Assembly: GCF_017876755.1 (NCBI RefSeq)
Contig: NZ_JAGIOO010000001.1
Coordinates: 3,767,786 to 3,831,785 of the forward strand
Reading direction: 5' to 3'
DNA: 64,000 nucleotides
Source of the DNA: Crossiella equi
GTDB taxonomy: Bacteria; Actinomycetota; Actinomycetes; Mycobacteriales; Pseudonocardiaceae
A model generated the notes under the pieces. It did not search any database, had not been told where the DNA came from, and saw only the letters and a program-made list of their open reading frames with translations. Below, piece after piece: positions 31,282-35,069 of the stretch. Made by a program: the position numbers and the translations under genes. Position 1 is the first letter of the stretch. Each line of letters opens with the position of its first letter.

Positions 31282-31785
31282 TTGGCCGACCAGCGGATCC
31301 GACGGATCGAACCGTCCGATGTGGACGCGGTGGTGCAGCTGGTGCACGACCTGGCCCGCTACGAGCGCGCCCCCGAGCAGTGCTTCATCACCTCGGCGCA
31401 CCTGCACGAGGCGCTGTTCTGCGAGCGGCCCGCGCTGTTCGGGCACGTGGCCGTGGTGGACGGCGTGGTGGTCGGCTGCGCCCTGTGGTTCCTGAACTTC
31501 TCCACCTGGCACGGCAAGCACGGCATCTACCTCGAAGACCTCTACGTCACCCCGGAGCAGCGCGGGTCCGGCCTCGGCCGCGCCCTGTTGCAGACCCTGG
31601 CCGAGGAGGCCGTGCGGCGCGGGTACGCCCGGTTCGAGTGGTCGGTGCTGGACTGGAACACCCCGGCCATCGACTTCTACCGCAAGCTCGGCGCGGTCGG
31701 CATGGACGAGTGGACCGTGCAGCGCCTCGACGGCGAGGCCCTGGCCGCGCTGGGCAAGGGCGCCGCCGCCCAGGACACGCCCTAG
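31282..31785 (+). CDS. GNAT acetyltransferase, diamine/thialysine (SSAT-like) type
   Basis: The protein has 167 residues from TTG 31282, chosen because AGGAG lies 8 bp upstream. The acetyl-CoA loop is RGSGLGRALL. The pattern FLNFSTWHGKHGIYLEDLYV and VLDWNTPAIDFYRKLGA is the hallmark of the spermidine/spermine N1-acetyltransferase and thialysine acetyltransferase group. It probably acetylates a small amine. The stop overlaps that of the DinB gene by four bases. Confidence 0.88.
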   Translation: MADQRIRRIEPSDVDAVVQLVHDLARYERAPEQCFITSAHLHEALFCERPALFGHVAVVDGVVVGCALWFLNFSTWHGKHGIYLEDLYVTPEQRGSGLGRALLQTLAEEAVRRGYARFEWSVLDWNTPAIDFYRKLGAVGMDEWTVQRLDGEALAALGKGAAAQDTP

Positions 31786-32303
31786 GTCAGCAGCGGGTCG
31801 CCCGCAGCCGCCACCAGCTCGAAGGAGGTGGCGCCGTCGAGGGACTCGCGCAGCAGGTCGGCGTGCCCGGCGTGCTGCGCGGTCTCGCTGACCAGGTGCA
31901 GCAGCACCCAGCGGACCGTGCGCACCTTGCCCACGACCAGCGGGTGGCCCAGCAGGCCCAGGTCCACCTCCCGGTCCAGGTCCAGGCCGTCGAGCAGCTC
32001 GTCGGTGGAGGCGGCGACCGCCGCGTACTCGGCCAGCGCGTCCTCGACCGTCTCGCCCTCGGCCAGCTCCTGGCCCGGCCGCCCCTGGTCGTTGTGCACG
32101 CCCCGGATCACGCCGGTCCAGTTGCGCTCGACCGTGGCCAGGCGCTTGACCAGCCCGGCCAGGGTCAGCGCGCTGGCCGTGGGCCGTTCGACGGTCCGCG
32201 CGTGGTCCAGGCCCAGCACCGAGCGGCGCACGTTGGCCCGCGCCTCCGCCAGGAAGGCGCGCAGCGCGTCGTGTTCACCGCGGGCGTCGCGGACCATGGC
32301 CAT
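31782..32303 (-). CDS. DinB/DUF664 family protein
   Basis: The protein has 173 residues from ATG 32303. It is a four-helix DinB-like protein of the group that includes mycothiol- and bacillithiol-dependent transferases. The distal metal motif HLVSETAQHAGH is present. In the proximal helix, however, LVKRLATVERNW has Arg where DUF664 proteins usually have a His ligand, so metal binding may be altered. It follows the CDPS-like gene by 48 bp on the same strand and may be co-transcribed with it. Confidence 0.85.
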   Translation of the reverse strand: MAMVRDARGEHDALRAFLAEARANVRRSVLGLDHARTVERPTASALTLAGLVKRLATVERNWTGVIRGVHNDQGRPGQELAEGETVEDALAEYAAVAASTDELLDGLDLDREVDLGLLGHPLVVGKVRTVRWVLLHLVSETAQHAGHADLLRESLDGATSFELVAAAGDPLLT

Positions 32304-32351: not shown

Positions 32352-33047
32352 TCAGCCCGCCGATTTCACGCTGGGCGAAACGGGGCGGTCGTGCTCCGGC
32401 CGCGGCGTCCCGAGCGCGACCGGCTGCCCGGGCCGCCGGTGCAGCTCCGGCGGCGCGGTGGCCAGCACGTCGGACAGGTCCGGCGGCGCGATCTGGCAGC
32501 GCACCGACTCCGGCACGCCCAGGATCCCGGCGCCGTCCAGCAGCACCGGCAGCTCGGCGAGCAGCCCGTGCACGGCCGTCTGCACCTGGCCCTTCGAGCA
32601 CAGCACGCCCGGTACCCGGCGCACCAGCTGCGTGGCGGCCGCGGACTGGCAGGCCGCGCGGAAGTCCGGGCTGGTCTCGTACGCCCCGCGCACCTGCTCG
32701 GCCAGCACCCGGTAGCGGTACCGGGCCACCAGCTCGGCCCAGCCCACCAGCGTCTCCGGGGCCAGGCGCAGCGCGTGCAGCGCCCGCCGCACCCGGTTGG
32801 TCAGGCGGCGGCCCTCGCTGCGCGCCTTGTGCAGCGCGCGGTGGGTCTTGTAGCCGACAGCGCGGTAGGTGTGCACCGCGGGCAGGTCCAGCACGAGCAC
32901 GTGCAGTGCCTCGTGGTGGTGCGCGGCCCAGGCGAGGTGCCCGGTGAGCTCCTCCTCGGCACCGTCGAAGATGCCCAGCACGACCAGTGCGTGCGCGCCG
33001 CTCTTCCCGGCGGGCCGCGGTCGTGGGATCCGGCCGTCAGTGGTCAT
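32352..33047 (-). CDS. Divergent cyclodipeptide synthase (CDPS)-like protein lacking canonical catalytic residues
   Basis: The protein has 231 residues from ATG 33047, with GGGGTGA 8 bp upstream. By recalled alignment to AlbC and Rv2275 it follows the CDPS fold throughout: GAHALVVLG, LDLPAVHTYRAVG, EGRRLTNRVRRAL, then TSPDFRAACQ, LLAELPVLLDGAGILGVPESVRC. Length also fits. The catalytic Ser37 of AlbC corresponds to Gly25, Tyr178 to Gly161 and Tyr202 to Gln185, while Glu182 is kept as Glu165. It therefore looks unable to form the aminoacyl-enzyme in the normal way. No oxidase or P450 tailoring gene is nearby. Homology is fairly sure; function is unknown. Confidence 0.7.
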   Translation of the reverse strand: MTTDGRIPRPRPAGKSGAHALVVLGIFDGAEEELTGHLAWAAHHHEALHVLVLDLPAVHTYRAVGYKTHRALHKARSEGRRLTNRVRRALHALRLAPETLVGWAELVARYRYRVLAEQVRGAYETSPDFRAACQSAAATQLVRRVPGVLCSKGQVQTAVHGLLAELPVLLDGAGILGVPESVRCQIAPPDLSDVLATAPPELHRRPGQPVALGTPRPEHDRPVSPSVKSAG

Positions 33048-33137
33048 GGCAGCGCTCACCCCGTGGTTGTCCCCGAAACACCCACGGCCCATTCCAGCAC
33101 GACACGCGCGGGCTCTCCCAGTCCCCGGTCCGAGTGA

Positions 33138-34061
33138 TCAACCCAATGGCGCAGGAGCGGTGTCCCGTTCGGCCCAGTGCCCGCGCAGCGCGGCCACCGC
33201 GACCGAGATCGCGGGCCGCCTGGTGGCCTGCCGCCGCCACACCGCGAACAGCCGCCGCGTCGGCGTCGGCACCAGCGGCAGCACCACCACCCCCGGCGGT
33301 ACCGGCCCGCGCCCGAGCCGGGGCAGCAGGCACGCGCCGAGCCCCCGCGCGGCCAGCGCGAGCTGCGAGGAGTACTCGGTGACCTGGTGCGCGAGCACCG
33401 GCTCCACACCGTCGCCGCGCAGCGTGCGCACCAGCCAGTCGTGGCAGATCGAGCCGGGCGGCTGGCAGATCCAGCGGGTGCTCGCCAGCTCCTCCGGCCG
33501 CACCTCGGCGCGGGCGGCCAGCGGGTGCGTCTCGTGCACCAGCACGTCGGCCACGTCCACGCCCAGCGCCTGCCGGGCCAGCCCGTCCGGTACCCCGATC
33601 GGGGTGTTCTCCCAGTCGTGCACCACGGCCAGGTCCAGTTCGCCGCGCACCACCAGCTCGATGGACAGGTGCGGGTCGAGCTCGGTCAGCCGCACGTCCA
33701 GGTCCGGGTACTCGGCCGCCAGCCCGGCCAGCGCGGCGGGCAGCAGACCGCGCGCGGCGGTGGCGAAGGAGCCGACGGTGAGCCGCCCGACCGGCCGTCC
33801 GCGCTGCTCCTCCAGCCGCACCTCGGCCTGCTCGACCAGCGCGAGCACCTCCCGCGCGGTCAGCGCCAGGCCCTCGGCCGCGTCGGTGAGCACCACGCCC
33901 CGGCCCCGGCGCTCCAGCAGCACGGTGCCGGTCTCGCGCTCCAGCTTGGCCAGCTGCTGGGACACCGCCGAGGGCGTGTAGCCGAGCGCAGTGGCCGCGG
34001 CGTTGACCGAACCGTGCGTGGCCACCGCGTGCAGCGCGCGGAGGCGACCGAGATCCAACAT
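33138..34061 (-). CDS. LysR-family transcriptional regulator
   Basis: The protein has 307 residues from ATG 34061. Residues 1-60 are the LysR winged HTH (RLRALHAVATHGSVNAAATALGYTPSAVSQQLAKLE). Residues about 90-290 are the substrate-binding effector domain. It is divergent from an EamA transporter with a 15-bp TAGCG/CGCTA dyad between them, so control of that exporter is likely. Confidence 0.92.
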   Translation of the reverse strand: MLDLGRLRALHAVATHGSVNAAATALGYTPSAVSQQLAKLERETGTVLLERRGRGVVLTDAAEGLALTAREVLALVEQAEVRLEEQRGRPVGRLTVGSFATAARGLLPAALAGLAAEYPDLDVRLTELDPHLSIELVVRGELDLAVVHDWENTPIGVPDGLARQALGVDVADVLVHETHPLAARAEVRPEELASTRWICQPPGSICHDWLVRTLRGDGVEPVLAHQVTEYSSQLALAARGLGACLLPRLGRGPVPPGVVVLPLVPTPTRRLFAVWRRQATRRPAISVAVAALRGHWAERDTAPAPLG

Positions 34062-34100: not shown

Positions 34101-34133
34101 GTGCTTAACTCTCGGACGGCTCACGCTGAAGCC

Positions 34134-35069
34134 GTGAAGCCCTCCCACGTCCTGCTCGCCCTGCTGACCGCCCTCGTGTGGGGGCTCAACTTCGTGCTCA
34201 TCGAGATCGGCCTCGGCGAGTTCCCGCCCCTGCTGTTCTCCGCGCTGCGCTTCTTGGCCGCCGCGCTGCCCGCGCTGTTGTTCGTCGGCTCGCCCCGGGT
34301 GGCCTGGCGCTGGGTGCTGCTCATGGGGTTCGGCCTGGGCGTGGTGAAGTTCGGCCTGCTCTTCGGCGGCATGCACGCGGGCATGCCCGCCGGGCTGTCC
34401 TCGCTGGTGCTGCAGAGCCAGGTGCTGTTCACGGTGCTGTTCGCCGCGCTGCTGCTCAAGGAGCGGCCGACCCCGATGCGCCTGGTGGGCACCGGGATCG
34501 CGGTGGGCGGCATGGTCCTGGTCGCGGTCGACCACGGCACCACCAGTCCCCTGGGCGCGCTGCTCATGGTGGTGGGCGCGGCGGCCACCTGGAGCCTGAC
34601 CAACATCGTGCTGCGCAAGGCCGCGCCGCCGGACATGCTGCGCTTCATGGTCTGGGTCAGCGCGGTGCCGGTGCTGCCGCTGTTCGCGTTGTCGGCGGCC
34701 TTCGAGGGCGTGGACACCGGTCTGGCCGCGCTGGCGCACGTGGACCTGGCCGGGGTGGGCGCGGTGCTCTACGTGGCCTGGGCCGCGACCCTGCTCGGCT
34801 TCGGCATCTGGGGCTTCCTGCTGCGCGTGTACCCGGCGAACCTGGTCGCGCCGTTCTCGCTGCTGGTGCCGGTGTTCGGCATGTCCTCGGCCGCGCTGTT
34901 CCTGGGCGAGCGGCTGACCGCCCTGCGCGTGGGCGCGGCCGTGCTGGTGATCCTCGGGGTGGCGCTGGCCTCCGGGGTGCTCCGGCGGCCGGGGGCGGCC
35001 CGGTCGGCGCCGGAGCAGTCCCGGGAGGCGGTTCTCAGCGCTTCTTGCCCCGAGTTGGCTCCTCGCTGA
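34134..35069 (+). CDS. EamA/DMT-superfamily transporter
   Basis: The protein has 311 residues from GTG 34134; GTG 34101 is an in-frame alternative. It has ten hydrophobic helices in two EamA repeats, with the conserved GLNFVLIEIGL and APFSLLVPVFGMSSAALFLGE segments. It is an inner-membrane metabolite exporter of the EamA/YdcZ kind; the substrate is unknown. The divergent LysR gene is the likely regulator. Its 3' end overlaps the convergent PRC-barrel gene by 35 bp. Confidence 0.9.
   Translation: MKPSHVLLALLTALVWGLNFVLIEIGLGEFPPLLFSALRFLAAALPALLFVGSPRVAWRWVLLMGFGLGVVKFGLLFGGMHAGMPAGLSSLVLQSQVLFTVLFAALLLKERPTPMRLVGTGIAVGGMVLVAVDHGTTSPLGALLMVVGAAATWSLTNIVLRKAAPPDMLRFMVWVSAVPVLPLFALSAAFEGVDTGLAALAHVDLAGVGAVLYVAWAATLLGFGIWGFLLRVYPANLVAPFSLLVPVFGMSSAALFLGERLTALRVGAAVLVILGVALASGVLRRPGAARSAPEQSREAVLSASCPELAPR

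Follow-up and report, generated by a model that had tools for sequence, protein, structure and literature searches.

A cyclodipeptide synthase family protein of Crossiella without its catalytic residues, a candidate tRNA-binding pseudoenzyme

A 64,000-nucleotide stretch of the Crossiella equi genome (contig NZ_JAGIOO010000001.1, positions 3,767,786 to 3,831,785; here termed the window) carries a gene of the cyclodipeptide synthase (CDPS) family that is a variant predicted to be without catalysis. Homology to the family, loss of the catalytic residues, orthology with an intact gene, selective constraint and the charge of a basic helix are observed; inactivity, tRNA binding and any regulatory role are predicted from these. 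The preferred reading, given a probability of about one half, is that the protein is a pseudoenzyme that would dock on tRNA acceptor arms and yield no cyclodipeptide.

32352..33047, (-) strand: putative CDPS-family pseudoenzyme gene (231 aa, MTTDGRIPRP...; PF16715 115 bits, TIGR04539 123 bits; orthologues in 5/5 Crossiella)

Family membership and active site

The open reading frame at 32352-33047 is real, with 231 aa counted from the ATG. It matches the Pfam CDPS profile PF16715 at 115.2 bits (cut-off 27) over profile positions 15-214 of 220, and NCBIfam TIGR04539 at 123 bits (cut-off 45); both scores are above the curated cut-offs and most of the length is covered. An initial annotation, made from the DNA sequence alone, had described the protein as following the CDPS family from end to end and as a non-canonical member of it, and the profile matches, together with the residue losses described below, bear this out. 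The solved CDPSs YvmC, AlbC and Rv2275 are matched by sequence as well (by phmmer and by a five-sequence profile). An AlphaFold model was built from three sequences, with a mean pLDDT of 59, and was used for the family match alone; no statement on the pocket rests on it. When this weak model was submitted to Foldseek, CDPSs took the top 48 places among the 50 PDB matches listed, with TMq only 0.22-0.37.

The catalytic residues of CDPSs are given as S37, Y178, E182 and Y202; in Nbra-CDPS, A76 is contacted by the counterparts of S37, Y178 and Y202 (PMC13062777). Numbering is that of AlbC, and the correspondence was taken from phmmer, from a 74-row MAFFT alignment and from a profile-profile alignment, all three of which agree. 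An orthologue is found in all five Crossiella genomes examined, the other four being 61-63% identical to that of the window. These were compared with an audit set of 154 other CDPS rows, consisting of 153 genomic matches (from relatives, the family, the class and one other genus) and AlbC. Similarity was the basis on which rows were chosen, and many of them are closely related; from the search of the one other genus, the 30 fetched loci (27 new) were taken.

32973..32975, (-): Gly25 codon, in the place of catalytic Ser37; Gly in 5/5 orthologues and 0/154 other rows
32964..32966, (-): Asp28 codon, in the place of Asn40; Asp in 5/5 and 0/154
32565..32567, (-): Gly161 codon, in the place of Tyr178; Ser in the other four species
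32553..32555, (-): Glu165 codon, Glu182 of AlbC by the alignments, the sole catalytic residue kept
32499..32501, (-): Arg183 codon, P1-pocket position 200; Arg in 5/5 and 0/154
32493..32495, (-): Gln185 codon, in the place of Tyr202; Gln in 5/5 and 0/154

The replacements in the window protein are thus S37 to G25, N40 to D28, Y178 to G161, Y202 to Q185 and H203 to I186, with E182 kept as E165. The initial annotation had named Gly25, Gly161 and Gln185 as replacements of Ser37, Tyr178 and Tyr202, with Glu182 retained, and the three alignment methods confirm this; its list was incomplete in that Asn40 and His203 are gone too. Gly37, Asp40, Glu182 and Gln202 are common to all five orthologues. Position 178 is Ser in four species and Gly in the window alone, and position 203 is Pro in the same four and Ile in the window protein. 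Of the residues expected in a functional enzyme, the nucleophile and both tyrosines are missing and only the glutamate is present. The Asn40 and His203 of the NYH subfamily are absent, and the XYP pattern (X40, Tyr202, Pro203) is not found either, with Gln at 202 throughout and Pro203 in four species. By tree and locus, the protein is placed as a descendant of the NYH subfamily.

A realignment that would recover a catalytic Ser and Tyr was looked for, and none is possible. No Ser, Thr or Cys occurs within residues 14-36 of the four orthologues (Ser16 and Thr35 are present in the window protein, but are not common to the orthologues), and no Tyr occurs in residues 151-167 or 176-190 of any of the five proteins. 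With no such residue close by in the orthologues, realignment cannot restore the active site. Chance loss is answered by the fact that all five species share the losses in an open, constrained gene. The kept Glu182 and family profile might suggest a CDPS that still works with a displaced nucleophile, but with three of the four catalytic residues, Asn40 and His203 gone and no nearby replacement in the four orthologues, this is very improbable.

Origin at the locus

In the 74-row tree, the five Crossiella proteins form a clade (support 100/100) whose stem is 1.55 changes per column long. The initial annotation had raised the question of whether a Gly/Gly/Gln form makes up a clade. The clade stands, but the form does not: it is Gly/Ser/Gln in four species and Gly/Gly/Gln in the window only. 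The sister group is a seven-row clade of a genus labelled g27 (support 94/82), in which the full active site is present in 7/7 rows. At four of four g27 loci (L109, L110, L111, L161), the CDPS gene has the neighbours known from the Crossiella locus, namely WhiB, diacylglycerol-kinase-like, 36k and histidine phosphatase genes, and none of these four genes was found within the fetched stretches near 19 other CDPS loci, including one canonical Crossiella CDPS. Because it occupies the same chromosomal place, unlike the 19 other loci, the g27 gene is taken to be the orthologue of the Crossiella gene. The intact CDPS at this locus in the sister genus indicates in turn that catalysis was lost in place on the Crossiella stem, and that the gene is an orthologue and not a transferred paralogue.

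Other origins were considered. Descent as a paralogue of the canonical Crossiella CDPS is ruled out by tree and locus. No phage record matches the gene, a viral scan with a CDPS alignment gave no match, and the four plasmid records that match contain Streptomyces CDPSs of ~35% identity. Recent transfer or a mobile element is ruled out by the lack of a phage match, the distance of the plasmid matches and synteny in five species.

The g27 loci examined are 36-37% identical to the window protein (tblastn). The g27 pocket has P1 residues LGLAWIGC and P2 residues (I/V)AYHRLA, with D at the second P2 position in one row, and seven of the eight g27 genomes with a family-search match carry these motifs. 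The same P1 and P2 are printed for a CDPS labelled F/G in Table 2 of the 2018 CDPS survey, and in its Table 1 CDPS 78 of Kibdelosporangium aridum is the only enzyme that produces cFG (100%, <0.1 mg/L) (PMC5816076). The motif match and the shared family suggest that g27 is Kibdelosporangium.

Selective constraint

The gene is open and without frameshift in all five Crossiella species. Amino-acid change amounts to 0.30, 0.33, 0.51 and 0.52 of the neutral expectation in four species pairs, the yardstick being four-fold degenerate sites of syntenic genes, which may be slowed by codon bias. Among 12 other genes, eleven show 0.00-0.38 of neutral, and the mycothiol-S-transferase (MST) gene that adjoins the CDPS gene shows 0.47-0.56. 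Simple counting of dN/dS gave 0.36-0.72, values inflated by high-GC third positions, and was replaced by this measure. The gene is under constraint, though a weaker one than acts on most of its neighbours, and plain decay is disfavoured by a rate of 0.30-0.52 of neutral.

A related proposal is that of a gene in the course of being lost, an orphan CDPS that drifts slowly because the need for its product has ended. It would account for the lost catalytic residues and for change faster than in 11 of the 12 neighbours tested, and the sister enzyme, if it is CDPS 78, is barely active in E. coli (<0.1 mg/L). It is nevertheless improbable, given frames open in 5/5 species with no frameshift, the rates just cited, a run of 21 consecutive invariant residues and identical replacements at positions 37, 40 and 202 in five species.

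Conserved stretch, helix alpha4 and pocket

32802..32888, (-): residues 54-82, the most conserved stretch in the clade alignment, extending into the first half of basic helix alpha4 (DLPAVHTYRAVGYKTHRALHKARSEGRRL)

Within residues 54-82, 27 of 29 columns are invariant in the clade vs 96 of 179 elsewhere (Fisher p 1.8e-5), and the longest invariant run, of 21 residues, was reached in 8 of 20000 shuffles. Mean conservation in the Crossiella proteins is 0.99 for this stretch and 0.86 for the rest, with the reverse seen in g27 (0.85 vs 0.93). The charge of alpha4 was counted over AlbC columns 80-112. It is net +8 in all five Crossiella proteins, +2 to +3 in g27, +5 in the Crossiella canonical enzymes and +4 in AlbC; the 154 other rows have a mean of 4.28 (standard deviation 1.37), and two of them reach 8 and 9 (L226, L218). 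NYH enzymes are described as binding their first substrate at the positive alpha4 helix (PMC13062777). The Crossiella protein has such a basic helix, and tRNA would be predicted to be recognized by it.

The initial annotation had also offered a different chemistry, which is not supported. The corresponding proposal is a new enzyme, in which the fold would go on accepting aminoacyl-tRNA, and Glu165 with the clade-specific Asp28, Arg183 and Gln185 would perform another reaction, e.g. ester hydrolysis (a deacylase) or transfer to a small acceptor. These four residues are invariant in 5/5 species, an unusual but fixed group of polar side chains where the active site used to be. The Asp, the Arg and the Gln are each found at their positions in 0/154 other rows, and a product could be tailored or exported by way of the neighbouring GNAT, MST and EamA genes. 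However, the residues that hold A76 are gone and no nucleophile replaces Ser37. In addition, either Gly or Ser is found at position 161, pocket positions 35, 65, 67, 156, 159, 185, 186, 204, 206 and 207 vary in the clade, and the neighbours are not specific to CDPS pathways. A new enzyme is thus considered unlikely.

Proposed function

Under the preferred reading, that of a tRNA-binding pseudoenzyme, a resident CDPS would have lost Ser37, Asn40, Tyr178 and Tyr202 (the holders of the 3′ adenosine) and His203 on the Crossiella stem. Replacement of the nucleophilic Ser by Ala abolishes CDPS activity, and work on the Phe-tRNA complex made use of a mutant of this kind (PMC7566563). With all five residues gone, formation of an aminoacyl-enzyme should fail, and on the basis of sequence and the published mutants no cyclodipeptide would be expected. 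The gene would have remained under selection, with the stretch leading into alpha4 nearly fixed and the helix made more positive than in relatives. By way of alpha4 the protein may dock on the acceptor arm of tRNA, either charged or uncharged, with its pocket emptied and re-lined. It could then act by binding, perhaps by holding back or presenting certain tRNAs, or by sensing their charging. Binding of tRNA without cyclization was among the functions first suggested for this gene, and from the residue losses and the basic alpha4 it appears to be the best supported.

Several observations weigh against this reading. Residues 54-82 were picked after the alignment had been viewed; residues 54-66 lie ahead of the helix, and alpha4 is less fixed in its second half. 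The canonical enzymes also keep this stretch slightly better than the rest (0.99 vs 0.95 in the canonical Crossiella CDPS and 0.54 vs 0.50 in all canonical rows), and part of the pattern is therefore common to canonical enzymes. Only two of 15 pocket positions (L33 and W119) keep the g27 residue in all five proteins, and the protein may therefore be blind to the amino acid. The conserved basic helix could bind other RNA, DNA or protein in place of tRNA. The gene changes faster than 11 of 12 other genes, with only the MST gene as fast, which would also fit a weak function. The grouping of Crossiella with g27 (94/82) joins two long branches and was flagged by the tree program, although synteny supports it. 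Finally, confidence in the AlphaFold model is low (mean pLDDT 59).

A second, canonical CDPS, with P1 residues CGFPSLFF, is present in four of the five Crossiella genomes (L027, L028, L029, L031). This raises the question of whether the protein is a regulatory or structural partner, i.e. a pseudoenzyme subunit, of the canonical enzyme. The two genes are, however, ~300-370 kb apart in the single-contig genomes G002 and G003. Moreover, the window's genome (98.66% complete, one contig) yielded no canonical CDPS and keeps the Crossiella-type gene as the only CDPS found. Because the window's genome shows just one CDPS, a role solely as helper of the canonical enzyme is impossible there, and a partnership in general is quite improbable. 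The candidate pseudoenzyme would, for the same reason, be independent of a canonical CDPS.

Distribution and other serine-less homologues

In a search of the family, 86 of 390 genomes have a match. The profile was built from the five orthologues, which themselves reach 426-481 bits and are followed by a match of 116 bits. Across 394 genomes sampled from the class, the highest score outside Crossiella is 95 bits. Scans of named genomes gave no match with a single-protein query, and with the alignment as query they gave Crossiella sp. S99.2 and SN42. Open-access literature searches revealed no description of a Crossiella CDPS or of a CDPS pseudoenzyme among the listed matches.

S37, Y178, E182 and Y202 are all present in 147 of the 154 audited rows, and Gly37, Asp40, Arg200 and Gln202 are each found in none of them. 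Three of the seven exceptions have a frame that ends early or shifts (L215, L220, L226). Two others, both of genus g25 (L165 in G418 and L167 in G405), have S37A, with Asn40, Tyr178, Glu182, Tyr202 and His203 intact; they are 95% identical to each other and are the natural equivalent of the laboratory Ser-to-Ala mutant. No tailoring enzyme was recognized among five neighbouring genes scanned at the g25 loci. A CDPS homologue of genus g93 (L096/L219 in G812) has S37R and Y202F. Its closest other match among 246 g93 genomes (L220 in G1256) is 59% identical and keeps Ser37, and the C-terminal end of that protein looks out of register. The remaining exception (L202 in G417) has Tyr202 replaced by His, with the other catalytic residues kept.

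In a quick tree of 153 rows, the five Crossiella proteins included, the state 'not Ser' needs three changes, of which well-supported branches force one. Serine is lost in two further groups, probably independently. It is tentatively proposed, at less than even odds, that the Crossiella protein may be the first recognized CDPS-derived tRNA-binding pseudoenzyme, with a strengthened alpha4, that it may regulate or sense aminoacyl-tRNA, and that the serine-less g25 and g93 relatives may reflect a recurring switch from consuming to binding.

Genomic neighbourhood

31782..32303, (-): MST/DinB-superfamily gene, downstream (PF04978, 113.8 bits)
33138..34061, (-): LysR-type regulator gene, upstream (PF03466/PF00126)
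34101-35069, (+): EamA transporter gene, divergent (PF00892)
33097..33126, (-): 30-bp block between the LysR stop and the CDPS start, near-identical in five species by eye

The gene order malic enzyme, epimerase-like, NiSOD, histidine phosphatase, GNAT, MST, CDPS, LysR, EamA, diacylglycerol-kinase-like and WhiB is syntenic in all five Crossiella species; names were assigned partly by profile matches and partly by reading of translations. A PRC gene that adjoins EamA is found in only two of the four other species. Six flanking genes were scanned (histidine phosphatase, GNAT, MST, LysR, EamA and PRC/DUF2382). No tailoring gene (oxidase, P450 or methyltransferase) is among them, and the locus does not resemble a CDPS cluster in this respect. 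The lack of cyclodipeptide oxidase or P450 neighbours, noted initially, thus holds among these six.

The DinB-family gene is indeed 48 bp from the CDPS gene, on its downstream side, and is of the mycothiol-S-transferase kind. The distance between the two genes is 48, 91, 326 (G002), -26 and -26 bp in the five species. The 26-bp overlap in two species suggests coupling of the two genes there, and they are possibly co-transcribed, as the initial annotation had proposed; in G002 they stand 326 bp apart. The MST gene does travel with the CDPS gene, in that it is adjacent in all, but the whole block is syntenic and the association is not specific. Each Crossiella genome has 9-13 MST-like matches, so that this gene has 8-12 relatives at other places in the same genome. 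Because of these numbers, and because spacing is not kept, MST/DinB is a weak candidate for a partner.

The suggestion of a new multi-gene system is not supported: no sign of a partner was found, and G003 has an intact CDPS gene despite an apparent frameshift in LysR. The LysR gene in question (L034, 8651-9586) appears shifted after residue 173, which may be a sequencing error. In G002 (L033), the 326-bp gap appears by eye to contain a short open frame running the other way. In the window, MST residue 54 (32142-32144, (-)) is Arg and in four orthologues it is His (LVKRLA vs LVKHVA/LVKHAV). His54 may be a metal ligand, in which case Arg54 would represent its loss.

The 33097-33126 block is possibly a promoter or leader of the CDPS gene. 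A sigma-70 promoter search over this region gave no match. By eye, the CDPS start codon is 37 bp further from the block in the window's species.

Comparison with known systems

CDPSs are known as enzymes that divert aminoacyl-tRNA from translation. A conserved member without the chemistry, but with a reinforced probable grip on tRNA, would separate binding from catalysis in nature. The Crossiella protein also offers a test of tRNA recognition in NYH enzymes, for which substrate-bound structural data are described as not available (PMC13062777). Serine-less homologues were set aside in the 2018 survey, and they share the absence of the serine with the Crossiella protein; because such sequences were removed, a protein like that of Crossiella would be dropped (PMC5816076). 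This suggests that filtering of serine-less sequences may have hidden a class of proteins.

The NYH CDPSs (AlbC/Snou-CDPS) resemble the Crossiella protein in profile, length, Glu182 and basic alpha4, and the weak model also matches them by Foldseek. They differ in that the Crossiella protein has no S37, N40, Y178, Y202 or H203 and has a re-lined pocket, and no cyclodipeptide would be expected from it. With respect to Kibdelosporangium aridum CDPS 78, the same-locus sister clade g27 carries the printed F/G pocket motifs, which CDPS 78 alone fits by product; in contrast to the Crossiella protein, the active site is intact in g27, and identity to the window protein is 36-37%. Paralogues and pseudoenzymes of aminoacyl-tRNA synthetases, as a general class, act by binding tRNA. 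By analogy, the Crossiella protein may likewise represent the fold of a tRNA enzyme that has outlived its catalysis, although the two belong to different families.
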